A DNA stretch of 52,414 bases from a virus, in IMG/VR virus record IMGVR_UViG_3300042731_007248, positions 1-52,414 of that record; one strand, given 5' to 3'. The first letter of the stretch is position 1; every line of letters begins with the position of its first letter. The notes beneath the pieces are model-generated. The model made no database searches and had not been told where the DNA came from. It saw only the letters and a program-made list of their open reading frames with translations. Shown here one piece after another: positions 5,044 through 34,702 of the stretch. The position numbers and the translations under genes are program-made.

Positions 5044-5274
5044 ATGGCCGATAAAGCTGTCTTCTCTCCATGTAGATATTGCCCGCACAAAAAAATGAAT
5101 AAGACACTGTGCATTTTTCTCGGTTGCCGTGACTGCTATGAATATGCCGATCAAATTGCATCAGGGCATTTGAATCGCAAGGAAAATTTCGGCATGGCAG
5201 ACCATCGCCACGCAGTCAGAACTAATAATTCAGAACAATTCACCCAAGACTATCAGGAGATTGATTTCGCATGA
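5044..5274 (+). CDS. Cys-rich small protein, zinc-binding type (76 aa)
   Basis: ATG at 5044 follows AAAGGAGTTTTAAA. The N-terminal half holds five Cys in CRYC, C and CRDC arrangements with a nearby His (CPHK), suggesting one zinc site. The stop overlaps the start of the nuclease gene (ATGA), so the two are probably co-translated and may work together. Confidence 0.65.
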   Translation: MADKAVFSPCRYCPHKKMNKTLCIFLGCRDCYEYADQIASGHLNRKENFGMADHRHAVRTNNSEQFTQDYQEIDFA

Positions 5275-6485: not shown

Positions 6486-7310
6486 ATGAAACGTAGAGAC
6501 ATACACGGAATGATATATGGGGATTTCGGTGTTGGTAAAGATACTTTTGCCAATACCTTCAGATCTCCGATACCGGGGGAACCAGACCGCAAGCTTGTCA
6601 TATTCACAGATGGCAAAGGTGGTAACGAGTTTCCATACTTTGAGGGAGCTACGGAAATAGGTGAGATACAAACCTATGAATGCGGTGAGGACTATTTCGG
6701 GGAACCTATCCTGATTGAGTATCAGGACATTATAAAGCCCAACGATGGTCTGACCAGAATAGAATTCATAAATTCGCCTATTCCCGAAAACCCTTATGCT
6801 GCGGATATAGTAAAAATGAAATTCCAAAACTATACCGCAGAACAGAAAACCATGGGTTGGAATACATTGATAATGTCGTCACTCTCAACTTTATCAATTG
6901 AATCCATGAATTTACAGAGACATATTCTCAACCCGGAAAGCCCGACCAAGAAAGTCGATAAGCGCCAATGGTACGGCGCTACAAAAGAATATCTCACTGA
7001 TATTTTCTCGTATCATCGAACTATTAAAGGTAATGTTCTTTATATTGCGCATACCGGACTGAAAGATGATAATGTGTCTGGTGAAATTATCCGACAAGTA
7101 GCCCTTCCAGGTTCCTTAGGCACCCAAAGCGGTATGCTTGTTGGTGAATGCTATCGGGTATTTGTTGAAAGGGATAAGGCCACCAAAAAGCGTAAACGGT
7201 GGTTGCAAACCGACAATGATGGAAAATTCTCAGCTAAATCACATCTAAAATGTGAAAGTCCCATAGAGCCAAACTATGAAGCGCTCTGGCATAAATGGGA
7301 CCAACTCTAA
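6486..7310 (+). CDS. Sak4-like RecA-fold ATPase, recombination
   Basis: A 274-residue P-loop ATPase of the phage nucleotide-binding protein/Sak4 type. The Walker A is GDFGVGKDTF (12-21), with Asp where Ser/Thr usually follows Lys and Thr after it. A hydrophobic strand ending LYIAHTG (about 182-188) fits the later RecA-fold strand. Sak4 proteins anneal or exchange single strands with help from SSB and an end-resecting nuclease, and both kinds of gene flank it. The start has only a weak TTGGAATT ribosome site, so expression may be limited. Confidence 0.7.
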   Translation: MKRRDIHGMIYGDFGVGKDTFANTFRSPIPGEPDRKLVIFTDGKGGNEFPYFEGATEIGEIQTYECGEDYFGEPILIEYQDIIKPNDGLTRIEFINSPIPENPYAADIVKMKFQNYTAEQKTMGWNTLIMSSLSTLSIESMNLQRHILNPESPTKKVDKRQWYGATKEYLTDIFSYHRTIKGNVLYIAHTGLKDDNVSGEIIRQVALPGSLGTQSGMLVGECYRVFVERDKATKKRKRWLQTDNDGKFSAKSHLKCESPIEPNYEALWHKWDQL

Positions 7311-8543: not shown

Positions 8544-8756
8544 ATGGATTACGAAATACCACATGAAATAAGACTTGAAATGAGCAAGAAAGCCCAAGAG
8601 CATACTACCTGGATGGAAGGTAACATAACAGTTACTTTTGAGGCATTTCTTAAAGTATTCAGCTATTTCTATCTTGAATCCATGTTGCACGGCATGGGTC
8701 ACGGTTACGAAATGGCTGCAAAGCATTTTGCAAAAATGGAAAACGAACATGATTAA
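8544..8756 (+). CDS. small helical protein upstream of polymerase (70 aa)
   Basis: Good TTTGGAGAAAAAATAA ribosome site. The C-terminal half is rich in Met, His and aromatic residues. Its last eight bases overlap the start of the polymerase N-part (ATGATTAA), so the two are probably translationally coupled. No family recognised. Confidence 0.65.
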   Translation: MDYEIPHEIRLEMSKKAQEHTTWMEGNITVTFEAFLKVFSYFYLESMLHGMGHGYEMAAKHFAKMENEHD

Positions 8757-10608
8757 AAACGGTTCAGACAATGCCCAAATCCTATTCATTTTGGATTGCC
8801 CGGATTATCAAGGCCAATATTCCGGTATTCTGATGTCGGACTTCTCCGGCAACCGGTACAAACAATTTATGATGTCCGCTGGAATTTTTACCGAAAACAT
8901 TAAAATTATCAGCCTGGTCAACCGCTATTATTCCATGGGTGACATACGGATGGTTCCGACAACCGATATCGTATCTGCTTTCGACGATTTGAATTGGTAT
9001 ATCGCCAAAATGCTGAATCTGCGTGTTTTGGTGCCTATGGGCAACTACAGCCTATTCTGCCTGACCGGCAAGGGTAAGGTAAAGGCCGACTTGAGAAAGT
9101 TCTATGGTCGTGATGTCAGTGCCTCAGAAGCGGAAAAGAAAGCGGATCTCTCAAAGCTGCGCGGATCAATCTACCCATACATCTCAAATGACGGGCGAAA
9201 ACTGAAAATATTGCCGATCCTTTCTCCCGGTTCCTTAAATGCCAATGAGAAATGGGTGAAACGAACAGTTTTTGATTTTCAGAAACTTTCCAGGCATCTG
9301 AAATTTTCCGGTATTCTGGATCTGAAGCGGAACCATTTCATAAATCCAACTGAATCACATGTGTCCGTATACACTAAAATGGTGGAGCGTGATTGGAAAG
9401 ACCTGATTCTTGCCCCTGATATAGAAACCAGCGGTAAAAACATGACATGTATCGGATTTGCCCATCAGCTTGATGCGTCCATTACAATCCCGACATCAAC
9501 CGAAAGAGAAAAACGGGTATTTCTACCCTACGTAAAACGGATATGCGAATCTGGAGCCCCTAAAGTGCTATGCAATGGCCTATACGATGCCTATTGGCTC
9601 TACTACTATGGAATTGCTCTGAATAATTATGTTTATGACGTGCAATACATGCACCATGCAATTGATCCACTTGATAATCATTCACTTGATTATCTGGCAT
9701 CAATTTACTTGGATCATTGTCAATATTGGAAGGACGAAGCAAAGGATAAGGATAAAATCAAAAAGTATGCTCGGCAATTGGACGCCTTATGGGTCTACAA
9801 CGGTTTGGATTGCTGCATTACCAGGGAACTTTATATTCCGCTCCTGAGACACCTGGAGCAAGTTGATATGGTTCAGTTCTATCTTGAGCACTATGCTGAG
9901 ATGATCCCGGTTCTATTGAAGACCTCGTTGCATGGCATGAAGGTTGATATTGAAGCTCAAAAGGAATGGGCGGCATCTCTCCGGGTATCAATGGCTGAAA
10001 TGCGAACCAAGCTCGAAGAAATTGCAGGTGAGAACCTTTTCTCCACATGGTTCTCACCATCTATACGAAAAGCGACACCTGTTGAGATAATGGATTTGCT
10101 CAAACCTGAATATTTTACAGCTAACTATGAGAACGAGTCAGATATACCAAAGTCTAAATGGATAGATCCCGAGAAGGTTAAAACCTGGAAAGCCCTTACA
10201 GGCAACACGTATGTGAAATCCGGTAAGAATGCAGGAATGGTAAAATATCGTGAAGAGATTGACGGGAAATCATTCTCACCGGCGAAACTGTCAAAACTGT
10301 TCCATGAAACTCTTGGCCTTCCCGGGGTAAAGAAACGTAGAAAAGGAAAACGGGAATCAACTAATTCTCTGGATGAAGCCTCTATCAGAAAATTGATGGA
10401 TAAATATCCTAAGAAGGCCGGTAAAGCAGGAACATATTTACTTGAATACCGCTCCATGCAAAAAGAACTTGATTACTTTAAACCTGGTGTAATTGACCCG
10501 GACGGCCGTATCAGATTCGGCTATGGATTCCTGACAACCGCCGGTCGTCTCAGATCAGCCAAAAATCCAAGGGGAACCGGGATGAACGGCCAGAACATAA
10601 AGAGGTGA
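8749..10608 (+). CDS. family A DNA polymerase, N-terminal part (split gene)
   Basis: A 619-residue first half of a PolA-type polymerase. Residues about 8-180 resemble a uracil-DNA-glycosylase domain (ILFILDCPD, LVPMGNYSLF, RGSIYPY, LPILSPGS), but the usual catalytic HPS is SPG, so it is probably inactive. Then the 3'-5' exonuclease: D224-x-E226 in DIETSG, D280 in NGLYDAYW, Y350-x3-D354 in YNGLD. The thumb follows, and TTAGRLRSAKNP (596-607) precedes QNIKR, where the frame stops. Motifs A, B and C are absent and sit in the gene at 19248. The stop lies inside an AGGTGACTTAAATG junction. ATG 8749 is chosen by coupling to the previous gene. Confidence 0.9.
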   Translation: MIKNGSDNAQILFILDCPDYQGQYSGILMSDFSGNRYKQFMMSAGIFTENIKIISLVNRYYSMGDIRMVPTTDIVSAFDDLNWYIAKMLNLRVLVPMGNYSLFCLTGKGKVKADLRKFYGRDVSASEAEKKADLSKLRGSIYPYISNDGRKLKILPILSPGSLNANEKWVKRTVFDFQKLSRHLKFSGILDLKRNHFINPTESHVSVYTKMVERDWKDLILAPDIETSGKNMTCIGFAHQLDASITIPTSTEREKRVFLPYVKRICESGAPKVLCNGLYDAYWLYYYGIALNNYVYDVQYMHHAIDPLDNHSLDYLASIYLDHCQYWKDEAKDKDKIKKYARQLDALWVYNGLDCCITRELYIPLLRHLEQVDMVQFYLEHYAEMIPVLLKTSLHGMKVDIEAQKEWAASLRVSMAEMRTKLEEIAGENLFSTWFSPSIRKATPVEIMDLLKPEYFTANYENESDIPKSKWIDPEKVKTWKALTGNTYVKSGKNAGMVKYREEIDGKSFSPAKLSKLFHETLGLPGVKKRRKGKRESTNSLDEASIRKLMDKYPKKAGKAGTYLLEYRSMQKELDYFKPGVIDPDGRIRFGYGFLTTAGRLRSAKNPRGTGMNGQNIKR

Positions 10609-10613
10609 CTTAA

Positions 10614-10799
10614 ATGGGAATAATGGTTTGCGATAAGTGTGGTAAAAGCATTAAGGCTAAATATGAACAAGAAACTGAAAATTCAACGGAACACTTTAGA
10701 ATTGTTCCTTGCCCTGAATGCAGTCAGGCAGATTATAATCGAGGTTTCAGCGCGGCAATTAAAAAAATTCTCGATACATTCGGCGAAAAGGTGACTTAA
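10614..10799 (+). CDS. zinc-ribbon microprotein, CxCG/PCxxC-type (61 aa)
   Basis: Carries CDKCG (about residues 6-10), PCPEC (about 32-36), then Y-N-R-G-F and a helix. The second half matches the genes at 11073, 11823 and 18423. It is the first gene of the block that separates the polymerase halves and starts in the AGGTGACTTAAATG junction. Confidence 0.7.
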   Translation: MGIMVCDKCGKSIKAKYEQETENSTEHFRIVPCPECSQADYNRGFSAAIKKILDTFGEKVT

Positions 10800-11072
10800 A
10801 TGCTTGTTTTGTGTCCAATTTGCGGTGCGCCGCTTAAAGCTAAAAAAGCGGATTACAGAGTATATCACGGTAAAACCAAACCAGTAACGGTCTATGAACT
10901 TGAAATGTGTCCGCACTGTTTCAAGGGAAAAGCCAAAATAAAAGCAACACATTCTATTATTTGGTGGCAATGCCCGATATGCTTATATAACCATACTTGT
11001 GATATCGGAACTAATACAACTTCCGGCATTTGTGATAATTGCAAAAACCTAATAAAACTTGAGGTGACTTAA
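10800..11072 (+). CDS. double zinc-ribbon small protein (90 aa)
   Basis: Four Cys pairs (CPIC, CPHC, CPIC, CDNC) plus one extra Cys suggest two zinc ribbons in tandem, separated by a Lys-rich linker. Starts and ends in AGGTGACTTAAATG junctions. Function unknown. Confidence 0.7.
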   Translation: MLVLCPICGAPLKAKKADYRVYHGKTKPVTVYELEMCPHCFKGKAKIKATHSIIWWQCPICLYNHTCDIGTNTTSGICDNCKNLIKLEVT

Positions 11073-11312
11073 ATGAAAGTACACTGCGTTTGTGGTCGAG
11101 AGTTATTTATTGTGGATCAACCTGATGATTACGATTACCCGACTGTAACGCCATGCCCTAAATGCATGCTGGCAAAATATAAGGAAGGCCAGCAAAGTAT
11201 CGGCTACTCTAAAGGTTACCAAGCTGGCTATAACCAGGCCAAAAAAGTTGTTTTTGGCTATATGAAAGGTAAATTGGGCTATCACCATGAAACGGAGGAT
11301 ACTGAAGAATGA
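11073..11312 (+). CDS. zinc-ribbon microprotein, CxCG/PCxxC family (79 aa)
   Basis: Has CVCGRELFIV, an acidic loop, PCPKC, then a GYSKGYQAGYNQA helix with repeated G-Y. Paralogous to 11823 and 18423, which share CxCG, a spacer of roughly 20 residues, CxxC and a G-Y/F tail. Overlaps the next gene by four bases. Confidence 0.7.
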   Translation: MKVHCVCGRELFIVDQPDDYDYPTVTPCPKCMLAKYKEGQQSIGYSKGYQAGYNQAKKVVFGYMKGKLGYHHETEDTEE

Positions 11313-11614
11313 AGAAACTAATTGCATGCGCTTTACTGGTCCTGGTGACCGGTTGCCCCGGACCGACATCAAATGAAATAAATCTTCAAAAAGAAGTTGA
11401 GAATTTGGAAAAAAGAAACGATCTTCTTTATGAACGAAATTGGGATTTGAAAAACAAATTGGAGAAACTTTCCAAATTGCAAATGGACAACGATGTGGTT
11501 GAAATCAAAAGAGCAGACTATGATTGGTCATGGTTCGGAGATTGTGTTGAAATAATGCAAAGGTACATTGCTTTCGATTACAAAGTAACCTTTGAAAAGA
11601 AAGGTGAAGAATGA
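11309..11614 (+). CDS. lipoprotein with coiled coil (101 aa)
   Basis: The N-terminus is Lys-Lys followed by a hydrophobic core and the lipobox VTGC (Cys at residue 16), predicting an outer- or inner-membrane lipoprotein. A charged coiled coil follows (about 27-62). Small phage lipoproteins with a coiled coil can be o-spanins, but no i-spanin partner is adjacent, so lysis function is only a possibility. Confidence 0.65.
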   Translation: MKKLIACALLVLVTGCPGPTSNEINLQKEVENLEKRNDLLYERNWDLKNKLEKLSKLQMDNDVVEIKRADYDWSWFGDCVEIMQRYIAFDYKVTFEKKGEE

Positions 11615-11814
11615 AATACACATTAACTTTAACTATTGGTTACCCTACAGCAATGCAGCAAACTACCATTACAAATGATGACATGGGGTATGACGATGAG
11701 ACTTGGGAAAAATTGCCCAATACCTTAAAAGAAAAATCGCTTAATGCTCATTTGGCAGCTTGGATTCAAAACCATTTAGAGTATTATTGGGAAGAACCAG
11801 ACGATGATGACTAG
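11611..11814 (+). CDS. small acidic protein (67 aa)
   Basis: Begins with a beta-like MKYTLTLTIGYP, then a helical part and a very acidic end (EEPDDDD). Overlaps the lipoprotein gene by four bases. Ends in a TAGGGGGC junction. No family recognised. Confidence 0.65.
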   Translation: MKYTLTLTIGYPTAMQQTTITNDDMGYDDETWEKLPNTLKEKSLNAHLAAWIQNHLEYYWEEPDDDD

Positions 11815-11822
11815 GGGGCGGT

Positions 11823-12053
11823 ATGCACGTGTATTGTAAATGCGGCAATCTGCTTGAAATCCTAAAAGAAGATGAATACGAGACAATAGTAACACAATGC
11901 AAGCGCTGTATAAATCAAAACCGCACAAAGATACACAATAAAGGTTTTGAGGATGGTTTTAAAAGCGGCAAACAAGTCGGATGGACAGAAGGTTACTCGG
12001 AATGTATGGGAGATATGAACATTTTAAGAAATTTCGGTGACCACTATAAATAG
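11823..12053 (+). CDS. zinc-ribbon microprotein, CxCG/PCxxC family (76 aa)
   Basis: CKCGNLLEIL, then CKRC about 20 residues later, then a helix with repeated G-F/G-W/G-Y. Clear paralogue of the protein at 11073. Preceded and followed by TAGGGGGC junctions, so it looks like a complete cassette. Confidence 0.7.
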   Translation: MHVYCKCGNLLEILKEDEYETIVTQCKRCINQNRTKIHNKGFEDGFKSGKQVGWTEGYSECMGDMNILRNFGDHYK

Positions 12054-12061
12054 GGGGCAAT

Positions 12062-12307
12062 ATGAACGAACATCAGCTTGCGCTCAAAATAAAGATGTCA
12101 AAGCAGTATCATAAAACCAAACTTAAGTTGGCCAAAGCTAATTTCATCTCCATAATGCAAACAGAACCTTCTGAAACTGACATGGCTATTTTGAGAAATC
12201 AGTACCTACCCGAATTTTTCAATGAGTTTGACAAATGGATAAAGGCTGTTGAACGTTATTATGAATCACTCAAAGATTCTAAAGGGGGGCAGGCAAATGC
12301 AGGATGA
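12062..12307 (+). CDS. small helical protein (81 aa)
   Basis: Follows a TAGGGGGC junction. Lys-rich N-terminal helix and an aromatic C-terminal helix. Overlaps the next gene by 11 bases. No family recognised. Confidence 0.65.
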   Translation: MNEHQLALKIKMSKQYHKTKLKLAKANFISIMQTEPSETDMAILRNQYLPEFFNEFDKWIKAVERYYESLKDSKGGQANAG

Positions 12308-12512
12308 GTTGAAAATCATAAAAAACGACATTCAAACCATTAAATTGACTTTGGCCTCGGTCATGTCGGTGTTAGTCGGGATACTGGAAAATGAACTTAT
12401 AGATGAAACAAACTTACACACAAGGCAGGTTAAAAGCGAGGTTATTGCTGATTATGAAGAATTGATTACAAGATTGGTTGACTGTTCGGAGGAACTGCAT
12501 GGCAAAACATAA
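12297..12512 (+). CDS. small helical protein, one hydrophobic segment (71 aa)
   Basis: ATG at 12297 follows AAAGGGGGGCAGGCAA. A hydrophobic helix (about residues 17-31) between charged helices could be membrane-associated or a coiled-coil core. Overlaps its neighbours on both sides. Confidence 0.6.
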   Translation: MQDELKIIKNDIQTIKLTLASVMSVLVGILENELIDETNLHTRQVKSEVIADYEELITRLVDCSEELHGKT

Positions 12513-12909
12513 TTTGGATTTGGCTCAGATTTATCAAGATATCCTGAAAGATGGTTATAGGCAAAAATGCCTGTTTTATAGCGGAAAAGCATCAGAATCA
12601 TTATCAGAGATTAGAAAAAAATTAAGAGAAGAGGATATTACCGAAACTGTTGAACAAATCGCCGATGATTTTCAGGAATTTAAAATACAAATTGCAAACG
12701 CTTGTGAAATATTTAGACAATATCGTTTAGCTACTCAGAAAGCGTTTGTCGACAGACATCGGTTAAATCTTGATGAAGGGATTACATCGGCTCCCGGCAG
12801 TTTTGAATTTGCAGATTGTGAGGATATTGAGTCTATTCCTCCTAAAGTTAAGGCACATGGCCGCGTTAAAAAACTAAAAGAAATTTATGATGGTAAATTT
12901 CTAGACTAA
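12499..12909 (+). CDS. hypothetical helical protein (136 aa)
   Basis: ATG at 12499 follows TCGGAGGAACTGC. Mostly helical with many charged residues, ending in a basic stretch (HGRVKKLK). No motif recognised. Confidence 0.65.
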   Translation: MAKHNLDLAQIYQDILKDGYRQKCLFYSGKASESLSEIRKKLREEDITETVEQIADDFQEFKIQIANACEIFRQYRLATQKAFVDRHRLNLDEGITSAPGSFEFADCEDIESIPPKVKAHGRVKKLKEIYDGKFLD

Positions 12910-12950
12910 AATGATAAACCGCGTATGTAGAAAGAAAGGAAAACCGTTGA

Positions 12951-13244
12951 ATGAAGAAACTATTGATTGGGAGTTGCTTATTCCTGTTGCTCGTTGGGTG
13001 TTCCCCGGAGGATATTCCCGGAGAGGAAGAGAAACCGCCGGAGAATGCCAAGAAGTGGCTTGTAATGGTTCCGCTGCCGAACGGAAAAATGCTGAACTAT
13101 TACCCGGATGGGGAAATTTACTCACCCACCGCCTATGACAGATATTGGGAGCTTACGGTTAATGGCAAAACTGTTCGTGTTCCGGTGAATATAGCCATTA
13201 TTGAGGAAATCAACAAAGAGGTAGAAAAACCACAGGAAAAATAA
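12951..13244 (+). CDS. small lipoprotein (97 aa)
   Basis: N-terminus MKKLLIGSCLFLLLVGC has a basic start, a hydrophobic core and a lipobox (LVGC, Cys17), followed by an acidic Pro-rich linker and a small beta-like domain. Predicted to be exported and lipid-anchored. It directly precedes a polytopic membrane protein and may act with it at the envelope. Confidence 0.65.
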   Translation: MKKLLIGSCLFLLLVGCSPEDIPGEEEKPPENAKKWLVMVPLPNGKMLNYYPDGEIYSPTAYDRYWELTVNGKTVRVPVNIAIIEEINKEVEKPQEK

Positions 13245-13245
13245 A

Positions 13246-14460
13246 ATGTCCAACAAGTTTGGAATTTTTACCCGGATGCTTCTCATGGTGTCCGGGTTTT
13301 TTATTTCTTTGGCAAGTTGCGGTTTCACATGCCGTTACATTGTGTTGCACGATACACCGCCTGAGTTGACCGGCAATTGGCTGTTCAATACGGATATCTG
13401 GTTTTATTACTCAAAGCTTGTCGGCGGTGGCATTGGTGTATTTATTTCTCAGGTATGCAGCCTGATAGCTTACAGGAAACTTGGTTTTAGGTATTTGTTG
13501 GTGATTTTCTGGCTATCTACCGTTGGAAGTATCCTGGTCACATTTTTGAGCTATTACGATAGTCAGCTTACATACGAACTGAATTCGTACAATACGCGGT
13601 ATGAGAAGGCCAAGGCTCAATATTTCAGTAATCCCCTATACAAGGTATTGCAGGAACGGCAAGCGTTTAATGTAGAGGCTCTAAACGGCCTAATAGCGAG
13701 ACAGCAAAAAGCCTATGAAGCCATGCGGTCAATCAGGCACACCACGAAAGCTGTGAAAGAGCTTAAAGAATATGAAGAACTGTTATTGGTAGCCGAGAAA
13801 AAGACGAATGACGCCACACAAGCGGTAATTGAGTTTCAGGAAGGCTTTCGGTTTTCGGAACCTGTAATAATTAGTAATATTTATGGACGTATGGCATTGG
13901 ATATTGCCAAATTTTATGGTAAAAAAGAAGTGTCATTCGAAGAGTGGTTAACGCTTGTCCTAAACTGGATGGTCTTATTTGTTTTCAGTGCAGCACCCGA
14001 CCTTATAGGGCCTTTCTTAATCTCAATAGCTTTTATGGGAAGTGAAAAAATGAAACACGAACTTGATACGACCGAGGTTGTAAGCTTCCATCGGAAAGTA
14101 CCACGAGGCAAAGGTATCATGACATGGCTGCAACGGCAGGCTGAAGCAATGATGAAACGTGAACTTAAAACCATCAAACCCAAACTGACAGACGATGATG
14201 ATTTGGAAAAAATTGAGGAAAATACCGAAACTCTAACCGGAATGCCGATTTCAGGGTTGTTCAAAACTCCGCCTCCAAAAGGTTTCGATGCAAAACAGGT
14301 TCTTGAAACCGTGACAGAGGAACAGATCGAACTGATTGTGAAATTTGTCAAAGAAGGTAAGAGTCAGAATAAAATAATTGATTTGGTTTTCATGATGAAA
14401 CCGAACAAAACACTGCGCAACAAAGTTCGCGCCGTAGTTATGGAGTATATAGATGGATAA
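13246..14460 (+). CDS. membrane protein with long coiled coil (404 aa)
   Basis: Three hydrophobic segments near the N-terminus (about 10-32, 56-75 and 81-102) are followed by a long charged coiled coil (about 105-205), a fourth membrane segment (about 238-265) and a cytoplasmic tail. The last 60 residues look like a small helix-turn-helix (VKEGKSQNKIIDLVF). It is the largest protein in the block separating the polymerase halves. I do not recognise a family; superinfection exclusion or host-membrane remodelling are guesses. Confidence 0.7.
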   Translation: MSNKFGIFTRMLLMVSGFFISLASCGFTCRYIVLHDTPPELTGNWLFNTDIWFYYSKLVGGGIGVFISQVCSLIAYRKLGFRYLLVIFWLSTVGSILVTFLSYYDSQLTYELNSYNTRYEKAKAQYFSNPLYKVLQERQAFNVEALNGLIARQQKAYEAMRSIRHTTKAVKELKEYEELLLVAEKKTNDATQAVIEFQEGFRFSEPVIISNIYGRMALDIAKFYGKKEVSFEEWLTLVLNWMVLFVFSAAPDLIGPFLISIAFMGSEKMKHELDTTEVVSFHRKVPRGKGIMTWLQRQAEAMMKRELKTIKPKLTDDDDLEKIEENTETLTGMPISGLFKTPPPKGFDAKQVLETVTEEQIELIVKFVKEGKSQNKIIDLVFMMKPNKTLRNKVRAVVMEYIDG

Positions 14461-14713
14461 AAATATAAAAAAAGCAATATTGTACGGCCTTAGAAAAGCT
14501 TTGCAGGATAAGCTTCGAGAAGCCTCTAACAGGCTTACAATCATAATAGATGAGGGATACTTCAATGTTTCTGTGTCATCCGGAAATACTTACAATCAGA
14601 GTAAAGTGCGCGAATTACTTAGAGATACTAAAAGCACAATTGCTGAAATTGAATCATTATCTGCAATTTTCTGGCAGATAAGTAATGACGAATTGGATTT
14701 AAAGGATAAATAA
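14453..14713 (+). CDS. small helical protein, paralogue of 18740 gene (86 aa)
   Basis: Starts MDKNIKKAI, then G-L-R, a helix and a beta-like SVSSG segment. The gene at 18740 starts MDKNLQRAV with G-I-R and keeps the same layout, so the two are duplicates 4 kb apart. Overlaps the membrane-protein gene by eight bases. Confidence 0.65.
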   Translation: MDKNIKKAILYGLRKALQDKLREASNRLTIIIDEGYFNVSVSSGNTYNQSKVRELLRDTKSTIAEIESLSAIFWQISNDELDLKDK

Positions 14714-14714
14714 A

Positions 14715-14834
14715 ATGACACTTTGGCATAAATTATATGAATGGTCTGAAGGGTCCAAGGTAAACAATGCAACCAAAGTCCTTATGGGTAGGCTGTTTTT
14801 CCAAAACTATTTCGATAAGCAGGTGAAAAAATAA
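14715..14834 (+). CDS. microprotein (39 aa)
   Basis: ATG at 14715 directly after the previous stop, with AAAGGATAAATAAA as a ribosome site. Aromatic-rich and basic. It ends at the start of the next gene and its own 3' end (AGGTGA) is that gene's ribosome site. Confidence 0.5.
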   Translation: MTLWHKLYEWSEGSKVNNATKVLMGRLFFQNYFDKQVKK

Positions 14835-15026
14835 ATGAAAATAACACAAGTAAAAACAGGTTTTACCAATGATGGTCAGGTATGTGTTGGACTTTTTGAC
14901 GAGGACACAGTGCTTGGCAATATCCCGCTTGATTTAGACGAAGCTAAAGCACTGATACTAAATTTAACACACGCTTTAATGGCAGCGAGTGAAATAAAAA
15001 ACGCTTTAAACAAAAGGTTAAATTAA
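14835..15026 (+). CDS. small protein (63 aa)
   Basis: AGGTGAAAAAATA precedes the ATG. Beta-like first half (ITQVKTGF, VCVGLFDED) and helical second half (LDEAKALILNLTHAL). The genes at 15930 and 17091 have similar strand-rich starts and amphipathic helical ends, so the three may be related. Confidence 0.6.
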   Translation: MKITQVKTGFTNDGQVCVGLFDEDTVLGNIPLDLDEAKALILNLTHALMAASEIKNALNKRLN

Positions 15027-15167
15027 ATGGTTGAAATAGAATGTACTCAATGTGGGAAACGTTATCATACATTACAATACTCGACCACGGGCAAATCAGT
15101 CTGTCCGTACTGTATGACGCTAAATAAGTTACCTCAATTCAAAAAAGAGAAAAAACACAATGAGTAG
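15027..15167 (+). CDS. zinc-ribbon microprotein (46 aa)
   Basis: CTQCGKRY at residues 6-13 and CPYC about 17 residues later form a minimal zinc ribbon; the tail is Lys-rich. Its last eight bases overlap the PAPS-reductase-family gene, suggesting translational coupling. Confidence 0.6.
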   Translation: MVEIECTQCGKRYHTLQYSTTGKSVCPYCMTLNKLPQFKKEKKHNE

Positions 15168-15903
15168 AGGCCATCAACTAAATATCTTCGGCAGAACAAA
15201 AGAAGAAGAATCAATACTATTTCTACAAAAATATGAACCTCCTGAAGGATATTTTTTAGGCTTTAGTGGTGGGAAAGATTCTGTTGTTATCAAACACTTA
15301 GCAGAAAAAGCAGGCGTTAAATTTACACCGTATTACTCTGCAACTGGGATAGATCCCCCGGAGCTGATGCAGTTTATCCGCGACTATCACCAGGATGTGA
15401 TCTGGAAGCGGCCCGCGCTAAATTTTTGGGCTTTGATTATGAAGAAGGGCTTCCCTCCGACGATTTGGAGACGCTATTGTTGCGATGACCTAAAAAAGAA
15501 GCCGACATTAAAAATTGCATTGAAGCGCCGAATAATGGGTATCAGATCCGAAGAATCTAGCCGTAGGGCTAATCGGCCAAATCCAAGTTATATTAAAGCG
15601 CATAAATACTGGATGGATAAGCCAATTTTCGATTGGCAGGAATGGGAAGTGTGGGATTATATTGAACGCAATGAACTTTCATATTGCTCGCTTTATGATG
15701 AAGGATTCAGCCGCATCGGTTGTGTTATCTGCCCGTTTTTATGCGGTAAAAATACAAAGAGAGTAATGAAACATAAAGAGCGGTGGCCTAAACATTACGC
15801 AATGTTTGAAAAAGTAATGCATCGGCTGTTCAAGCAGCACAAGGAAAGACTCAGAGAAAAAAGTGCCGAGGAGCTTATTCAAAATTGGTATCGAGGAAAT
15901 TAA
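15160..15903 (+). CDS. PAPS-reductase-family protein with Fe-S-type cysteines
   Basis: A 247-residue member of the CysH/DndC-like ATP-pyrophosphatase group. SGGKDS (36-41) is the PP-loop. CC at 107-108 (RRYCCDD) plus C188-x2-C191 (CVIC) match the pattern that holds a 4Fe-4S cluster in APS reductases and DndC, and a further Cys lies at 195. Such genes are common in phages, with roles proposed in sulfur metabolism or thio-modification of nucleic acids. No other Dnd or cysteine-synthesis gene is visible, so the substrate is unknown. Confidence 0.75.
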   Translation: MSRGHQLNIFGRTKEEESILFLQKYEPPEGYFLGFSGGKDSVVIKHLAEKAGVKFTPYYSATGIDPPELMQFIRDYHQDVIWKRPALNFWALIMKKGFPPTIWRRYCCDDLKKKPTLKIALKRRIMGIRSEESSRRANRPNPSYIKAHKYWMDKPIFDWQEWEVWDYIERNELSYCSLYDEGFSRIGCVICPFLCGKNTKRVMKHKERWPKHYAMFEKVMHRLFKQHKERLREKSAEELIQNWYRGN

Positions 15904-15929
15904 TTCGTCAATCAACGAGGAAAACAAAA

Positions 15930-16124
15930 ATGACAGAGAATAAATTTGAAGAAAAATACGATGATTGTAATCTTTGGGTGTCTCGTACAAAAAAGAAGGT
16001 CGCTTTTACTTTTTCGCTTGGCACTATGGAAATTGAAGCATACTTTACTGTCGAGGCTGCGGAAAAAATGATCGGTCAAATTCAAACCGCCATTAAGGAG
16101 ATTAAAAAACACAATGACGCTTAA
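15930..16124 (+). CDS. small protein (64 aa)
   Basis: ATG at 15930 follows AACGAGGAAAACAAAA; the frame from 15885 would overlap the previous gene. Strand-rich first half (KVAFTFSLGTMEIEAYF) and an amphipathic C-terminal helix. Overlaps the next gene by 11 bases. Confidence 0.6.
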   Translation: MTENKFEEKYDDCNLWVSRTKKKVAFTFSLGTMEIEAYFTVEAAEKMIGQIQTAIKEIKKHNDA

Positions 16125-16296
16125 AACAGTACCGATTTACGAAAAGGAATACACCCTACAGGCATTTGCCTGCCTTTGTCCGCATTGTCGTAAGGAACAA
16201 CCCGTAATTATTCCCGGCTATTGCACATGTGAAGATTGTGGGGAAGAATTCTTTGCGGATGATTTGGAAAGTGAGGAGGGCAATAATGCTGACTAA
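16114..16296 (+). CDS. zinc-ribbon microprotein (60 aa)
   Basis: CLCPHC, then CTCEDCGEEF about 18 residues later: a canonical zinc ribbon with an acidic tail. Overlaps the next gene by 11 bases, whose ribosome site (GAGGAGG) lies within it. Confidence 0.65.
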   Translation: MTLKTVPIYEKEYTLQAFACLCPHCRKEQPVIIPGYCTCEDCGEEFFADDLESEEGNNAD

Positions 16297-16507
16297 AATA
16301 AAAAAGTCAAATCAGCTAATTGATCTATTAGCCGCTACAGCGGAACGGGCTATAAAAGAAGCGCATGCTGAAGGGTTACAAAGAAACGGAAATACGATTT
16401 TCAATCTATGCGATATTGGCAGCATGGCAGATGACCTTTCTGAAATGTTGCATGAATTGAGCATTCAAATGAAACAGGTTTACAAAAGTGAGGAACATAA
16501 TGATTAA
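16286..16507 (+). CDS. small helical protein (73 aa)
   Basis: ATG at 16286 follows GTGAGGAGGGCAATA. All-helical. Overlaps the next gene by eight bases. No family recognised. Confidence 0.6.
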   Translation: MLTKIKKSNQLIDLLAATAERAIKEAHAEGLQRNGNTIFNLCDIGSMADDLSEMLHELSIQMKQVYKSEEHND

Positions 16508-16796
16508 AGAGTGTCAACTATGCGGAACAAGCTCAGAAGCTTGCGATTTCAAGATTGAAGGTGTTTGTCGTAAATGTATGGACAAATTCAGAGACTTGGA
16601 AATCGCCCACATGGATAAAAAATTAGCCGTAGCTAATGAAATAAGCAAAATTTACGAGGATATCAATGATTCCCTTGGTACTTGGTTCGAATGGACTGAA
16701 CCTGATATCAAGGACATAGAAATGATCCTTGAACATTACAAGGCTATTTGGGCTAAAATAGCCTTCCATCATGATCCATTCGCAGAAGGGGTTTGA
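16500..16796 (+). CDS. zinc-ribbon plus helical domain (98 aa)
   Basis: CQLCG and CRKC (about residues 5-9 and 23-26) form an N-terminal zinc ribbon; a helical domain rich in acidic and aromatic residues follows. ATG at 16500 follows GTGAGGAACATA. Confidence 0.65.
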   Translation: MIKECQLCGTSSEACDFKIEGVCRKCMDKFRDLEIAHMDKKLAVANEISKIYEDINDSLGTWFEWTEPDIKDIEMILEHYKAIWAKIAFHHDPFAEGV

Positions 16797-16828
16797 TAAC
16801 AAACTTTATTGGAGGATAAGAAAATAAA

Positions 16829-17098
16829 ATGACACATGGAAGTCTTGGTCAAACATACAATAACAGTGTGGATAGAAAAGATTTTTTACGAAAAAGATTA
16901 AGAAAGCATCTTTCCAATATGCGGCTTTCTTTACAGGTATTTATAACCGGAAAAACAAAAATAGCCAATAATGATGATATTGCTTTTTTCAAAGCTGCTG
17001 TTGAGCGCGATATCCAAAACACACATGAGGTTTTAGAGGAACTTTGCGAGTATTTGCAAAAGGAATTTGACAATAAAGGAGACTCGCTTAATGGCTAA
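16829..17098 (+). CDS. small helical protein (89 aa)
   Basis: TGGAGGATAAGAAAATAAA precedes the ATG. Arg/Lys-rich helix followed by a long amphipathic helix. Its last codons (KGDSLNG) are encoded inside the repeat that forms the next gene's ribosome site. Confidence 0.65.
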   Translation: MTHGSLGQTYNNSVDRKDFLRKRLRKHLSNMRLSLQVFITGKTKIANNDDIAFFKAAVERDIQNTHEVLEELCEYLQKEFDNKGDSLNG

Positions 17099-17306
17099 AC
17101 CAGTAATAACCGACGCCATTCTAGATTTACAATGCGGAAAGATGATTTTAAAAGTAGATGTTCCCTTTACTGGTGAAATACAGATTGATTTGGGTTTGGA
17201 TGATTTAGAGCGATTGATCGAAAAATTAGAACGTGGAAAATACATACTCACAAGATTTGCCACATTCGGTCATAAAACCAATAAAGGAGATTCACTTAAT
17301 GGCTAA
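17071..17306 (+). repeat. duplicated 28-base gene junction
   Basis: Two copies (17071-17098 and 17279-17306), identical at 26 of 28 positions, hold AATAAAGGAGA, CTTAATGGCTAA and hence the end of one gene, the ribosome site and the first codons (MAK) of the next. Both upstream proteins end NKGDSLNG. This is a second stereotyped junction type and marks cassette duplication. Confidence 0.8.
17091..17306 (+). CDS. small protein (71 aa)
   Basis: ATG at 17091 lies in the first copy of the 28-base junction. Strand-rich start (ITDAILDLQCGKMILKVDV) then an amphipathic helix, similar in layout to the genes at 14835 and 15930. Function unknown. Confidence 0.65.
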   Translation: MAKPVITDAILDLQCGKMILKVDVPFTGEIQIDLGLDDLERLIEKLERGKYILTRFATFGHKTNKGDSLNG

Positions 17307-17658
17307 GATAGTAAGAATCATTACATACACTGGGCATCCGAAAAGTTTGAAAGAACAGTTGGCTAAATCTTTACCGGATGATTATATGAAAAAGACCTAC
17401 TCTGACTATAAATCTCAATATGAGCTTTATATTCATGCCAAAACAATTTTCAATAACACATCCCCGGAAAATACACTCATGTGGGAATTGAAACAATTGA
17501 AAAATATTGCTGTCACAACTGATAATTACGATCCGATTAATTTTTCACCATGCGGTTTCTGGTACAGGAATAGGGATAAAGTCGTAGGGCCTTTTCCAAC
17601 TCACTTTGAAGCGATGGCTCATTGGTATGAAGAGAATCCTGAAGGTGGTTATATATGA
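17299..17658 (+). CDS. hypothetical protein (119 aa)
   Basis: ATG at 17299 lies in the second junction copy. Starts MAKIVRIITYTGHP; the C-terminal part has the pattern CGFWYRNRDKVVGPF with an aromatic helix after it, which looks like a small substrate- or peptide-binding domain but matches nothing I can name. Confidence 0.65.
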   Translation: MAKIVRIITYTGHPKSLKEQLAKSLPDDYMKKTYSDYKSQYELYIHAKTIFNNTSPENTLMWELKQLKNIAVTTDNYDPINFSPCGFWYRNRDKVVGPFPTHFEAMAHWYEENPEGGYI

Positions 17659-17879
17659 TTGTAGCAAGTGTTATCATAATTGGTTCCTGTATTGGCGGGT
17701 TCATGCATTTTCTAGGCACTGATGATTGGGAATTGTCGATAGTCGCAGCATTTGTAACGGCTTGTGTAATTATACTGTTTTTCGCATTTTTTACAATCAT
17801 TCGTAATACTGCCATTGACTGGGATATGCTTTTGGCATTTTTGAAAAGGATGGATACCATTGTGATATGGGGCAAATGA
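17655..17879 (+). CDS. membrane protein, two segments (74 aa)
   Basis: Hydrophobic segments at about residues 2-20 and 28-48, with a short amphipathic C-terminus. Overlaps both neighbours by four bases. Too little to assign function. Confidence 0.6.
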   Translation: MIVASVIIIGSCIGGFMHFLGTDDWELSIVAAFVTACVIILFFAFFTIIRNTAIDWDMLLAFLKRMDTIVIWGK

Positions 17880-18025
17880 TTCTTGTCGTCGGTTTCGCAA
17901 CCTGGGCGACCATGTTTGTTATCGAAAAATATGAATGGGAGAAAAAGCATATAATTTGGCTTTCTCCCATTTTTACTTTGTACGGTTGGTTTCTTTACGA
18001 AATTATAAAGGAGGTGTTTTTTTGA
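17876..18025 (+). CDS. membrane microprotein (49 aa)
   Basis: ATG overlaps the previous stop (ATGA). Two hydrophobic segments flank a charged EKYEWEKKH loop, a hairpin-in-membrane layout. Its end contains the AAAGGAGGTG ribosome site of the next gene. Confidence 0.55.
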   Translation: MILVVGFATWATMFVIEKYEWEKKHIIWLSPIFTLYGWFLYEIIKEVFF

Positions 18026-18264
18026 GTTTTATTAAACAATTTAAAAGATTTTGTTTCGGCTATACGCCTTCCATTTATGGTGAAAGGAAAGATGGAGCTA
18101 ATAACACACAAATTGAATTGGCCACAATTGGACAAACTCCAGATATGGAAAAAAGGAAAAAAGAAATTGTGCGCCAGTTGAGAAGACTGGGTTTTTATAA
18201 CATTTGTGTTTTTGACAGTCTTTATGATGCAAAGGAGTATATTGAAAATGACAAATTACTCTAA
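18022..18264 (+). CDS. small basic protein, TTG start (80 aa)
   Basis: TTG at 18022 follows AAAGGAGGTG, six bases away; the longer frame from 17935 would overlap the membrane gene. Arg/Lys-rich with a C-terminal LRRLGFYNICVFDSLYDA segment. No family recognised. Confidence 0.55.
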   Translation: MSFIKQFKRFCFGYTPSIYGERKDGANNTQIELATIGQTPDMEKRKKEIVRQLRRLGFYNICVFDSLYDAKEYIENDKLL

Positions 18265-18430
18265 ATGCTCTTGGTCCGTTGACGATCCTGATGGATTCTT
18301 TGAAAGGCTGTGGAATAGCGGCTGTGGCCATCATTTCTATTTTACTGAATTTGAACCCGATGAGAATGGATGGAAGTTTTGTCCATGGTGCGGGAAACCA
18401 TTAGAGGTGAAAGGTGAAACCGATGAGTAA
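18248..18430 (+). CDS. zinc-ribbon microprotein (60 aa)
   Basis: A Cys and a CGHH segment in the first half and CPWCGKPLE near the end give the zinc-ribbon pattern seen in many phage microproteins, including the Lar-like class. ATG at 18248 with AAAGGAG eleven bases upstream. Overlaps both neighbours. Confidence 0.6.
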   Translation: MTNYSKCSWSVDDPDGFFERLWNSGCGHHFYFTEFEPDENGWKFCPWCGKPLEVKGETDE

Positions 18431-18632
18431 AATATTTTGCACATGCGGTACGGAATTGATCATTGTAAATTCAGATACTTCCGATCCACCAATAGTAATA
18501 CCTTGTTCTGTTTGCAAGGCTTTCGAATATTCTAAGGGTTATAGGAATGGAACGCAACTGGCAGAAAAACTCCTTGATCAGGAAATTGAAAGGTTGGCCG
18601 GTGAAATAGCGAAATTGAAAAGCGAGCTCTAA
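18423..18632 (+). CDS. zinc-ribbon microprotein, CxCG/PCxxC family (69 aa)
   Basis: CTCGTELIIV, PCSVC, then YSKGYRNGT and a coiled coil. Third clear member of the family at 11073 and 11823. ATG 18423 follows AAAGGTGAAACCG. A terminator-like hairpin follows. Confidence 0.65.
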   Translation: MSKIFCTCGTELIIVNSDTSDPPIVIPCSVCKAFEYSKGYRNGTQLAEKLLDQEIERLAGEIAKLKSEL

Positions 18633-18639
18633 AAATGGG

Positions 18640-18666
18640 AAGGGGCACCTAAAGTGAGTGCCCCTT
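18640..18666 (+). terminator. terminator-like hairpin
   Basis: AAGGGGCAC (18640-18648) pairs with GTGCCCCTT (18658-18666), nine perfect pairs and a nine-base loop. Only three T follow, so termination may be partial. The gap 18633-18739 holds no other convincing gene. Confidence 0.5.
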
Positions 18667-18739
18667 TGACTAAGAAGAAAGAAAACACACAATGATTATT
18701 AGGATAGGTCATCAATAATCAGTTGTCAAGGAGGGTATT

Positions 18740-19009
18740 GTGGATAAAAATTTACAAAGGGCGGTGATGAAGGGTATTCGGGATGAGATTTATAGCGGTC
18801 TTACGGAAATCGGGACGCTTCTTACGAAAATTCGGCAGGATAATTATTTACATCTGGATTTCAGCCGGTATGGGAAATCTGATACCAGGTTTATCAAATT
18901 CAAAGAGATTGCGTGTCAGGTTAAGAGTCGCATGGAGGCACTTGAAAACTTAGCCGATATTTTTTATGCGACTGGGCGAAATGAGACAGATTTTACAAAA
19001 CTCAAATAG
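18740..19009 (+). CDS. small helical protein, GTG start, paralogue of 14453 gene (89 aa)
   Basis: GTG at 18740 after AAGGAGGGTATT. Starts MDKNLQRAVMKGIR like the 14453 protein and keeps its helix-strand-helix layout. First gene after the hairpin and part of the short run before the polymerase C-part. Confidence 0.65.
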   Translation: MDKNLQRAVMKGIRDEIYSGLTEIGTLLTKIRQDNYLHLDFSRYGKSDTRFIKFKEIACQVKSRMEALENLADIFYATGRNETDFTKLK

Positions 19010-19017
19010 GTTGAAAC

Positions 19018-19239
19018 ATGGACACTATAACAGCAATTCCTTTGGTTATCGCCGGTGGTATTGCTTATATCACTTTGGTTGGCGTCGGTCTTTGGTATTT
19101 TGTCGGGTTTCCTCTATATTTTGGGGATTTCCTAAGACGCAAATACGACAATGAATATTATTTCGACATCGGATTTATATTTTCCGGCATTTTTAATATG
19201 ATTCTTTTTGTTTCGGTCATTTCATTCATAACTAAATAG
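19018..19239 (+). CDS. membrane protein (73 aa)
   Basis: Two long hydrophobic segments (about 5-30 and 50-71) with a basic loop (LRRKYDNE) between. Its TAG stop opens the TAGGGGGC junction that provides the ribosome site for the polymerase C-part, which starts eight bases later. Confidence 0.65.
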   Translation: MDTITAIPLVIAGGIAYITLVGVGLWYFVGFPLYFGDFLRRKYDNEYYFDIGFIFSGIFNMILFVSVISFITK

Positions 19240-19247
19240 GGGGCTTT

Positions 19248-20099
19248 TTGAAGTCAATTAGAGAAACTTTTCTGGCAGACGATGGGTGCCTTATGGTCAA
19301 GGCTGATCTTTCGCAGATGGAGCTTAGAATCGGCCTGATGTACTGTTTTGAACCGGACATGATAGCCATGGCCAATACCAAGCCTTGGAATTATGACGGC
19401 CACACTGAAAATGCGAAAATCATTTTCGGTACCGAAATTGTGGATCTTCCCAAAAGTGAATTCAAATTTTACAGAAATATTGCAAAGATGGCCGTGCATG
19501 CCAGTTGGCGTAAAATGCAGGGTAAAACTCTGGCGGCAAACATCTTGAAAGCAACAAAGGGTGAAACTTCATTCAGCGATAAAAAGTGTCAAAAACTGAT
19601 TAATACCTATCTGAGTGGGATGCCAGCTATCGAGAAAGTGTTTTTCCCTTATGTGGAAAATAAGATGTATCGGGAAGGTTTGTTGGTGACCAGTTTCGGC
19701 AGAAGGTATGATATTCAGTATTACAGGATTGACGATAATCTGAAAAGAGCCTGCTACTCCTTCTATATGCAGGCTGAAGGAGCGGACTGGACGAACACAT
19801 ACATTTATAAGCCAATGCACGAATGGGTTTGGTCACGGCACGGGAAGGCTCTAAATGCCCAAATTCATGATGAGGTTGTGGTTAGTTTACCACCAGAGCA
19901 TATCTATGATTATTGCCAACGGATTAAGGAATCTGATGAGATTAGGCACGAAATGCCAAAAGGAAGTGGTAATTTTTTGTCAATCCCGATAGAATTAAAA
20001 ATAGGGGAGAATCTTTTAGGCAAGGTTGAATTTGCGCAACTTCCACCGAGAAATGAATTTAATGATATTATAAGGGAGGAATTTAAATGGAACTTCTAA
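19248..20099 (+). CDS. family A DNA polymerase, C-terminal part (split gene)
   Basis: A 283-residue palm and fingers domain starting at TTG 19248 after TAGGGGGC. KSIRETFLADDG at the start is the segment that normally follows QNI..R in PolA enzymes, exactly where the N-part at 8749 ends. Motif A is DLSQMELR (D20), motif C is QIHDEVVVS (H207-D208-E209). Motif B (R76-x3-K80, then MAVHASWRKMQG) is unusual: the aromatic-Gly pair and the closing Tyr-Gly are missing. Both metal-binding Asp (D20, D208) are kept, so activity with the N-part in trans is plausible. Confidence 0.9.
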   Translation: MKSIRETFLADDGCLMVKADLSQMELRIGLMYCFEPDMIAMANTKPWNYDGHTENAKIIFGTEIVDLPKSEFKFYRNIAKMAVHASWRKMQGKTLAANILKATKGETSFSDKKCQKLINTYLSGMPAIEKVFFPYVENKMYREGLLVTSFGRRYDIQYYRIDDNLKRACYSFYMQAEGADWTNTYIYKPMHEWVWSRHGKALNAQIHDEVVVSLPPEHIYDYCQRIKESDEIRHEMPKGSGNFLSIPIELKIGENLLGKVEFAQLPPRNEFNDIIREEFKWNF

Positions 20100-20436: not shown

Positions 20437-20733
20437 TTGGGCAAACCGAAACAACTTCAGGAATATGCAAAGGCACTCCAGGAAGCCATTCATACGAATA
20501 AGGCGCTTGAGAATATTCTGAGAGATATGCGCAAGGATTATGATGAGTTGTATAATTATTTGTTGGCGGTATTGAATTCAAGTCCCGGTCGTCAATTGAA
20601 AATAAAATTTAGCCAATTTCTGACTTTTAGCGAGCAGTACCGGTTGGGTAGGGATGTGGATAAGAAAGAAGAAATTATTCGTTTATATTTGATTTCAGCC
20701 AGGGACAATAATGAAACTGAATCAGGAAAGTAA
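20437..20733 (+). CDS. hypothetical helical protein, TTG start (98 aa)
   Basis: TTG at 20437 follows TAGGGGGC. Long helices with a central Tyr/Leu segment, no recognised motif. Overlaps the helicase gene by 23 bases, suggesting coupled translation. Confidence 0.6.
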   Translation: MGKPKQLQEYAKALQEAIHTNKALENILRDMRKDYDELYNYLLAVLNSSPGRQLKIKFSQFLTFSEQYRLGRDVDKKEEIIRLYLISARDNNETESGK

Positions 20734-21910
20734 CCTATTTGACTTATATGAATATATTTCAGGTGAGTCTGAGGTTCCCCCCTATTATCATTTCTGGTCA
20801 TGTGTTGCGATTCTGGCAGCAGCAATGGAAGATAAGGCTTGGGTTGAAATAAATCCGGGCTTCCCAATAAAGCCGAACTGCTATATCGGATTGATTGGTC
20901 CGGGCAGTATCGGCAAGGGTTGGGCCATGAGTCAGGCTATCAGGATTTTGGAAACTTCCACCAATGTCTATATTTACCGGGGGAAACTGACTCACTCACA
21001 TCTTTATGATATGCTCGGCAAGGTAATCGAAACTGAAGACGGTGACTTTATTTTACCGGACCCCAAAGTCTTCATCGTAATGGATGAACTCTTAAATGGG
21101 GTTGGTTCGGACAAGACCATCACTAAAAGCATCATTACCACATTGACCGAACTCTATACCGCGACAAATTACACTTTCAACGAGGGTAACAGATCAAGCG
21201 GTAAACTGAATATCTCAAAGCCTTGTGTCAGTTGGTTTTTTGGCAGTACGATTGATTGGTTGCTTGAAGTGATGTCCGGCAGCGGAAATATATTTGAGTC
21301 AGGTTTTGTCGCCAGATGCATGTTCATCCTTGCCGACTATGATCCCGAAGTGAGGATATTCAAACCGATTTACCCAAAAGACAGGGATTTGGCCGTATCG
21401 TGGGTACAGCAACGTATTTGCGATATCAGCAATAATATCCACGGTGAGTTTAAATTTGATACGGTTGCCGAGCAGACTTTGGAAAACTGGTACTATACGA
21501 GAGAGGCTCCTGAGGATAGGCGGTTGCATTCCATTTGGAAACGGCAGCAGGAGATGACCTACAGGCTGTGTATGGTGTTTTCAATCGCCGAGAGTATGGA
21601 CATGCGTATAAAATATGATCATGTCTGTAAAGCGCTCTATACGATTAATTCGGTGTTCGATTTCACAACGCAGCTTTTGAAAGGATGCACCAATAGCGGC
21701 ACATTCATCGGGCAGGTGGCTACCTATGTTTCAGATTTGATTCAGAAGCACAAAGAGATTCCGCACAGTAAGCTTACCAAATTGTGCAGCAGCAACCGGA
21801 GTTTGACGGCAAAGCAGGTAAGAGCGGCGATTGCCCAGTTATTAGAGGAGAATCAGATTGAACGATTTAGGCAGAAAAAAACAAACGGTATAATTTACAG
21901 GTGGCTCTAA
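20711..21910 (+). CDS. DUF3987-like replicative helicase/ATPase
   Basis: A 399-residue P-loop ATPase resembling DUF3987/YfjI-type phage helicases. Walker A is GPGSIGKGWA (63-72), unusual in having Gly after the Lys; Walker B is VFIVMDELL (120-128). The HFWSCVAILAAAMEDKAW start is typical of that group, and the last 70 residues look like a winged helix. It is probably the fork helicase; no separate primase or DnaB-type helicase is seen. Last gene of the rightward arm, right before the convergence terminator. Confidence 0.7.
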   Translation: MKLNQESNLFDLYEYISGESEVPPYYHFWSCVAILAAAMEDKAWVEINPGFPIKPNCYIGLIGPGSIGKGWAMSQAIRILETSTNVYIYRGKLTHSHLYDMLGKVIETEDGDFILPDPKVFIVMDELLNGVGSDKTITKSIITTLTELYTATNYTFNEGNRSSGKLNISKPCVSWFFGSTIDWLLEVMSGSGNIFESGFVARCMFILADYDPEVRIFKPIYPKDRDLAVSWVQQRICDISNNIHGEFKFDTVAEQTLENWYYTREAPEDRRLHSIWKRQQEMTYRLCMVFSIAESMDMRIKYDHVCKALYTINSVFDFTTQLLKGCTNSGTFIGQVATYVSDLIQKHKEIPHSKLTKLCSSNRSLTAKQVRAAIAQLLEENQIERFRQKKTNGIIYRWL

Positions 21911-26576: not shown

Positions 26577-26586
26577 GGCTTTATCC

Positions 26587-27111: not shown

Positions 27112-27113
27112 AT

Positions 27114-33635: not shown

Positions 33636-33638
33636 AAT

Positions 33639-34043: not shown

Positions 34044-34087
34044 TTACCTCTCGTACCTTTCTTTTTACCTTTGCCTCGACAACCCAT
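34040..34087 (-). CDS. possible basic micropeptide (15 aa)
   Basis: ATG overlaps the previous stop as TAATG and the stop overlaps the next ATG. The product is MGCRGKGKKKGTRGK. It may be a leader for coupled translation rather than a functional protein. Confidence 0.3.
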   Translation of the reverse strand: MGCRGKGKKKGTRGK

Positions 34088-34188
34088 TATTTTTTACCTT
34101 TCCGTTTTTTCTTGGCCTTTTGCATCATGGAGTCTTTTGTCTCGGTGGCGTATTGTGGCGGTATCTTGTACTTTTTCTTTTTAGCCAT
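34087..34188 (-). CDS. very basic microprotein (33 aa)
   Basis: MAKKKKYKIPPQY start and a KKKRKGKK end; more than a third of the residues are Lys or Arg. It overlaps the gene upstream by eight bases. In a head-gene neighbourhood such a peptide could bind packaged DNA, but this is a guess. Confidence 0.45.
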   Translation of the reverse strand: MAKKKKYKIPPQYATETKDSMMQKAKKKRKGKK

Positions 34189-34691: not shown

Positions 34692-34702
34692 CTCAAACCC
34701 CC

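Follow-up and report, generated by a model that had tools for sequence, protein, structure and literature searches.

The closest described counterpart of the locus analyzed here is the family A DNA polymerase of the OM43 phages of the MEP401/MEP402 type, which has been reported to be split by one small open reading frame (ORF), an arrangement that is kept in most of the group I genomes and for which the authors proposed a possible intron (PMC10580990). Another phage replicative polymerase encoded in pieces is that of MIJ3, although this enzyme belongs to the unrelated family B, and its pieces are separated by a split intein and an HNH endonuclease (PMC6892783). Here we describe a family A DNA polymerase that is present as two genes in the 52,414-bp IMG/VR virus record IMGVR_UViG_3300042731_007248 (positions 1 to 52,414; hereinafter, the window). 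As in MEP401/MEP402, two intact, codirectional ORFs encode, respectively, the 3'-5' exonuclease with the N-terminal part of the polymerase and the C-terminal part, and the break falls between the QN(I/L)P region and motif A. In contrast, the MEP401-type polymerase represents a different subfamily, its gp13 lacks the uracil-DNA glycosylase (UDG) domain, its halves are separated by a single, non-endonuclease ORF of 77 amino acids as opposed to about 28 ORFs spanning 8.6 kb, and its break (NLQNFDGEIKTLFLSRYGE followed by a stop codon, then MILNADAKALEW) is located ~12 residues further downstream. Thus, the two-ORF family A phage polymerase is already on record, and the window is a variant rather than a plain member of this type; what is new is the 28-ORF separation, the change in motif B, and the pattern of one loop as an apparently recurrent fission site.

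A family A DNA polymerase encoded by two distant genes

The two polymerase genes and the stretch between them comprise the following features:

8749-10608, plus strand: polymerase N-half, 619 amino acids from the ATG at 8749, comprising the UDG-fold and 3'-5' exonuclease domains, the thumb and the initial palm segment
8749-9312, plus strand: UDG-fold domain (amino acids 1-188), the model of which aligns with the Thermus UDG 1ui1 (Z 20.8, 158 residues)
9319-9864, plus strand: 3'-5' exonuclease domain (PF01612, 9.9e-8), with the DIE, Nx3D and Yx3D motifs intact
10504-10605, plus strand: palm segment of the N-half, extending to the break and including the TTAGR...QNI motif (Arg668 in Klenow)
10603-10616, plus strand: left edge of the insert, a 14-bp unit, AGGTGACTTAAATG
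10609-19247, plus strand: intervening stretch of 8,639 bp, about 28 codirectional ORFs, mostly small
19248-20099, plus strand: polymerase C-half, 283 amino acids, with a TTG start after GGGGG; the rest of the palm and the fingers, including motifs A, B and C
19305-19328, plus strand: motif A, DLSQMELR, with the catalytic Asp and the steric-gate Glu
19473-19517, plus strand: motif B, RNIAKMAVHASWRKM, with Arg and Lys kept and an Arg at the Tyr766/Tyr714 position
19860-19874, plus strand: motif C, QIHDE

The products of these two genes jointly account for a single polymerase. The same PHROG polymerase profile, phrog_17, is matched by the N-half over positions 473-985 (E 3.8e-37) and by the C-half over positions 995-1206 (E 2.6e-30). 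With Pfam, the C-half is the sole match to DNA_pol_A (PF00476) in the record (5e-21; 75.5 bits against the cut-off of 34.3), and the N-half scores 32.4 bits against the exonuclease cut-off of 23.6. The AlphaFold2 models of the halves, which were built separately from alignments of IMG/VR relatives (predicted local distance difference test score, pLDDT, 80.7 for the N-half and 88.3 for the C-half, the latter with a predicted template modeling score, pTM, of 0.83), cover the thumb, palm and fingers of the Bst polymerase consecutively and without overlap, with Z ~21 each: residues 192-619 of the N-half align with Bst 297-628 (Z 21.2), and the C-half aligns with Bst 632-876 (Z 20.9), or 324-681 and 684-928, respectively, in the Klenow numbering. 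Given this tiling, almost nothing was lost at the break, at most about 2-4 residues, the QNIP proline among them. Structure alignment puts the loss at only two or three residues and places the break within the palm, directly before the motif A strand. The N-half ends with TTAGRLRSAKNPRGTGMNGQNIKR and a stop codon, whereas the C-half, which starts at a TTG, begins with KSIRETFLADDGCLMVKADLSQMELR (KSIRETFLADDG); no further 5' extension of the C-half can be accommodated because of an in-frame TAA 13-15 nt upstream of this TTG. The PHROG family phrog_2573 (336 positions) has the same start point as the C-half, which suggests that more free-standing C-halves exist.

The preliminary description of this locus held that one family A polymerase is encoded here by two genes 8.6 kb apart and that its N-part ends at QNIKR just after the TTAGRL motif; the agreement among Pfam, PHROG and structure tiling, the NGQNIKR terminus of the ORF and the lack of any second full-length polymerase gene among the PF00476 matches in the record all bear this out. 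The statement that nothing conserved is missing or duplicated holds with respect to overlap but not with respect to the few residues lost, and the proposed partition into exonuclease/thumb and palm/fingers chains needs an amendment in that the palm itself is cut, with the segment that carries the T-motif arginine remaining on the N-half. The N-terminal UDG-fold domain was absent from that account. In an alignment with relatives, both active-site motifs of this domain are replaced, GEAPG by LDCPDY and HPxxx by LSPGSL, so that glycosylase activity appears doubtful, and the domain is probably a non-catalytic remnant or a DNA-binding module.

Among the catalytic residues aligned for the window and 17 other sequences of the polymerase subfamily, the window retains the DxE, Nx3D and Yx3D residues of the exonuclease, the T-motif arginine, the Asp and Glu of motif A, the Arg and Lys of motif B, a conserved Gln, and the HDE of motif C. 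On this sequence evidence, homology to family A DNA polymerases is not in doubt, but the polymerase activity is put in question by one residue of motif B, which is discussed below. The two halves are intact, fold well separately in the models and together cover one enzyme without overlap; nearly every catalytic residue is retained, and split homologs exist elsewhere. For these reasons, the reading that is best supported, with a rough probability of 0.74, is that they form a two-chain polymerase that would assemble in trans and derive from an ancestral single-chain UDG-exo-Pol enzyme that was interrupted by small genes.

Splits in the same loop in other phages

The relatives examined comprise 41 IMG/VR loci, duplicates included, that were collected via three relatives, two of them unsplit and one split. 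Exactly the same loop is split in L036/L040, L041/L042/L062 and L047. Because L036 and L040 are identical copies, as are L041 and L042, these loci amount to three IMG/VR split lineages; Vibrio phage VS-ABTNL-3 (vB_VspS_VS-ABTNL-3, MF497422, PVS_29/PVS_27) is the fourth. All belong to the subfamily of the window and have intact halves, and the N-halves of L036/L040, L041/L042 and L047 end with NLQNWTKGDEEEEEA, NQQNLTSGSKES and NLQNIPKGNEDE, respectively, each followed by a stop codon. In VS-ABTNL-3, the polymerase has the same neighbors as in the window and is split in the loop (QNLPKGDG and a stop, then PNIKKLF), but the motif B is normal (HATNY). The distance between the halves also differs, with only one or two small genes in all these phages: one of 48 amino acids in L036, one of about 79 in L041, two genes in L047, and in VS-ABTNL-3, a single gene of 184 amino acids in which no Pfam domain was detected. 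Some of these intervening genes overlap the stop codon of the N-half at their start. The long separation in the window (28 ORFs versus one or two) is the only exceptional feature of its split in the compared set. The view of the preliminary description that a family A split of this kind is unusual therefore has to be narrowed: the two-ORF form has been published for MEP401/402 and the loop split recurs in at least four other lineages, so that only the distance stands out, and the original estimate of some 30 genes becomes about 28 when ORFs of 45 amino acids or more are counted in a simple non-overlapping call.

The search for single-chain relatives, which the preliminary description had called for, yielded L002 (IMG/VR 3300037722_000333), an unsplit homolog of 839 amino acids that is the nearest match of the N-half, shares with it the LDHCQYWKDE stretch as well as the gene order, and differs from the window in having HGSNFQM in motif B. 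In unsplit relatives, the loop between QNIP and motif A is a linker of variable length and thus tolerates change.

In the maximum-likelihood tree, unsplit members separate the window from the four other loop splits. Grouping of the window with these four (L008, L036, L041 and L047) in one clade was rejected by the approximately unbiased (AU) test (p 0.0009), and a clade of L008, L036, L041 and L047 without the window was weakly rejected (p 0.034). Given the long branches in this tree, our conclusion is limited to two or more origins within the subfamily, in addition to MEP401 in another subfamily. As judged from these sequences, the splits in this loop are at least partly independent, and the loop looks like a recurrent fission site, a pattern of which no statement was found in the literature searched.

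Breaks at other sites were kept separate from the loop splits. In L039 (1363-1661) and L045, the UDG domain is separated from the exonuclease domain by a sequence that contains an HNH-like frame (CLEWT...HKCNNKLCVNTDHL), whereas in L059 (8250-8700) and in Caulobacter phage Kuura (L012, 2674-3287), the break lies inside the exonuclease domain, in both cases close to the YWK motif. L044 has an in-frame TGA (6693-6695) in an otherwise continuous polymerase frame. The overlapping 'DNA polymerase' coding sequences of Enterococcus phage GiddyUp, with a frame change near motif A, were not counted because they possibly reflect a sequencing error. Two tblastn matches in human faecal contigs (H1 and H2) were rejected as phage kin: these are full-length bacterial-type PolA genes located beside genes for penicillin-binding proteins.

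A probable two-chain enzyme and its alternatives

Under the preferred reading, which agrees with the two-chain polymerase acting in trans that was proposed in the preliminary description, the ancestor would be a family A phage enzyme with its UDG, exonuclease and polymerase domains in one chain. Small phage genes would have been inserted as a block into the surface loop that links the QNIP motif to motif A, and this block would then have grown to about 28 genes, or else would have arrived already large. The break would have left two complete ORFs, each with its own start signals. Both chains would be produced from the early operon(s), fold as stable half-domains and dock via the palm interface to yield one active polymerase, to which the N-half would contribute the thumb and the T-motif arginine along with the proofreading exonuclease, whereas the catalytic aspartates and the fingers would come from the C-half; neither peptide nor RNA splicing would be required.

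Several observations weigh against such an enzyme, foremost the motif B arginine in combination with the lack of close relatives. Motifs A, B and C are all present in the C-part, as originally noted, but motif B of the window reads HASWRKM, with Trp-Arg in place of the Asn-Tyr/Phe found in nearly all other sequences; the second of these positions is Tyr or Phe in 17 of the 17. The pattern Rx3Kx3(F/H)x3(Y/F) accordingly retains its R, K and H but ends with the Arg. An arginine at the position equivalent to Tyr766 is, judging by the alignment, unusual for a family A polymerase, and the C-half could therefore have reduced activity or none. The branch of the window polymerase is also very long (4.47), and its placement in the tree is unsure. 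Single-protein scans with the C-half or the DUF3987 protein revealed no close relatives of the window, and the scan with the N-half led to a single distant locus, L002, so that selection on the two halves is not measurable. Finally, no terminal repeats were found in the record, which is possibly incomplete. Changes at the motif B tyrosine are known to lower fidelity without abolishing synthesis. Among the solved structures matched by the C-half is 3hpo, a crystallized Bst polymerase with Tyr714Ser at this tyrosine.

The motif B change, the weak-looking TTG start and the long branch would all fit a C-half that is a decaying or repurposed remnant, with the host polymerase employed for replication and the N-half surviving as a proofreading or UDG-like nuclease. 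We consider this unlikely given that the two reading frames run uninterrupted through 619 and 283 codons, the remaining catalytic residues are all conserved, and the C-half model (pLDDT 88) shows a complete palm/fingers fold through the polymerase C-terminus. Moreover, the identity of the C-half to its homologs, 19-25%, is comparable to that of the unsplit distant members L002 or L003, and with both halves diverged about as much as such unsplit members, nothing indicates that the C-half has decayed faster. An assembly artifact, that is, fragments of different phages or a misjoined contig, might be suspected from the 14-bp repeat located exactly at the left edge, but this repeat is too short for a likely assembler misjoin. 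The halves are codirectional, the outer synteny is intact on both sides, the junction is short by only 2-4 residues, as expected for one gene, there is no drastic step in composition (GC 0.417, 0.383, 0.41), and the architecture recurs in other phages, including the isolates VS-ABTNL-3 and MEP401, all of which makes such an artifact quite improbable.

Joining of the halves after transcription or translation, whether by a split intein or by a group I/II intron that is split or giant, has precedents in phage polymerase genes that contain introns or inteins (Moonbeam, with endonucleases, and the split PolB intein of MIJ3). For the present locus, it appears highly improbable. No group I/II intron was detected with Rfam in the window at the gathering threshold, nor at either edge under relaxed settings, where only chance snoRNA matches were obtained, although a strongly diverged intron might escape this search. 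No endonuclease or intein domain was identified with Pfam in the inserted ORFs tested, and the stop two codons after the break, together with the in-frame stop just before the C-half, leaves no room for intein halves. The earlier observation that no intein or homing endonuclease is seen at the edges is thus upheld within the reach of the Pfam and Rfam searches, and the same applies to introns. Readthrough or frameshifting was rejected as a way of joining the halves because they are 8.6 kb apart and the frame of the C-half is closed just upstream.

Should the two chains form an active enzyme, this would show that a replicative polymerase of family A tolerates a cut through the palm, and that a polymerase of two subunits is naturally accessible to phages. 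The repeated use of the loop would then make it a split site already tested in nature, of use in the engineering of split or switchable polymerases. A more far-reaching proposition, which we put forward only tentatively, is that this loop is a permissive fission site of family A polymerases, at which phages may repeatedly have obtained a working heterodimer, in the present case with subunits encoded 28 genes apart, separately expressible proofreading and catalytic chains, and an arginine in motif B of the catalytic chain. With several natural examples at hand, the question can be tested directly and in parallel. For annotation, the implication is that distant short ORFs labeled 'DNA polymerase' and 'exonuclease' in a phage genome may be parts of one enzyme.

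Genomic neighborhood and intervening genes

The polymerase genes are flanked by the following genes, assigned with Pfam and PHROG:

5271-6227, plus strand: PD-(D/E)XK nuclease, ancestral upstream neighbor, order kept in relatives
6486-7310, plus strand: AAA/Sak4-like protein, ancestral upstream neighbor, order kept in relatives
20711-21910, plus strand: DUF3987 primase/helicase-like gene, ancestral downstream neighbor, position kept in relatives

In related phages, the gene order is PD-(D/E)XK nuclease, AAA/Sak4-like protein, polymerase, DUF3987. In the window, the nuclease and AAA/Sak4-like genes still precede the N-half, and DUF3987 still comes after the C-half; with the outer neighbors in the ancestral order, it is the middle that has been filled by ~28 small genes, and neither half has been relocated. 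Further downstream, at 22303-35656, there are large minus-strand genes that encode proteins of up to 1,147 amino acids, without Pfam matches in those tested; these are probably structural genes.

At the left edge of the insert, AGGTGACTTAAATG reads AGG TGA in the polymerase frame and so supplies the stop codon of the N-half, and the same unit provides the ribosome-binding site and the ATG of the first inserted gene. Three exact copies of this unit, at 10603, 10789 and 11062, each start one of the first three inserted genes. Entry of the insert via recombination at this gene-junction unit is plausible but unproven.

The GC content of the insert is 0.383, compared with about 0.41-0.44 in the adjoining genes. 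Most of the inserted ORFs are short and belong to no families, several CxxC proteins being among them. A gene of the PAPS reductase family is located in the middle of the insert (15160-15903). A 404-amino acid protein with hydrophobic N-terminal stretches is encoded at 13246-14460 and has no match in Pfam or PHROG; a strong hairpin with a T-run (13270-13297) lies within the first codons of its gene. An intergenic gap of the insert contains a near-perfect palindrome, AAGGGGCACCTAAAGTGAGTGCCCCTT (18640-18666). There are also pairs of paralogous genes within the insert, 11073-11312 with 18414-18632 and 14453-14713 with 18740-19009, which suggests that the insert grew in part by duplication.

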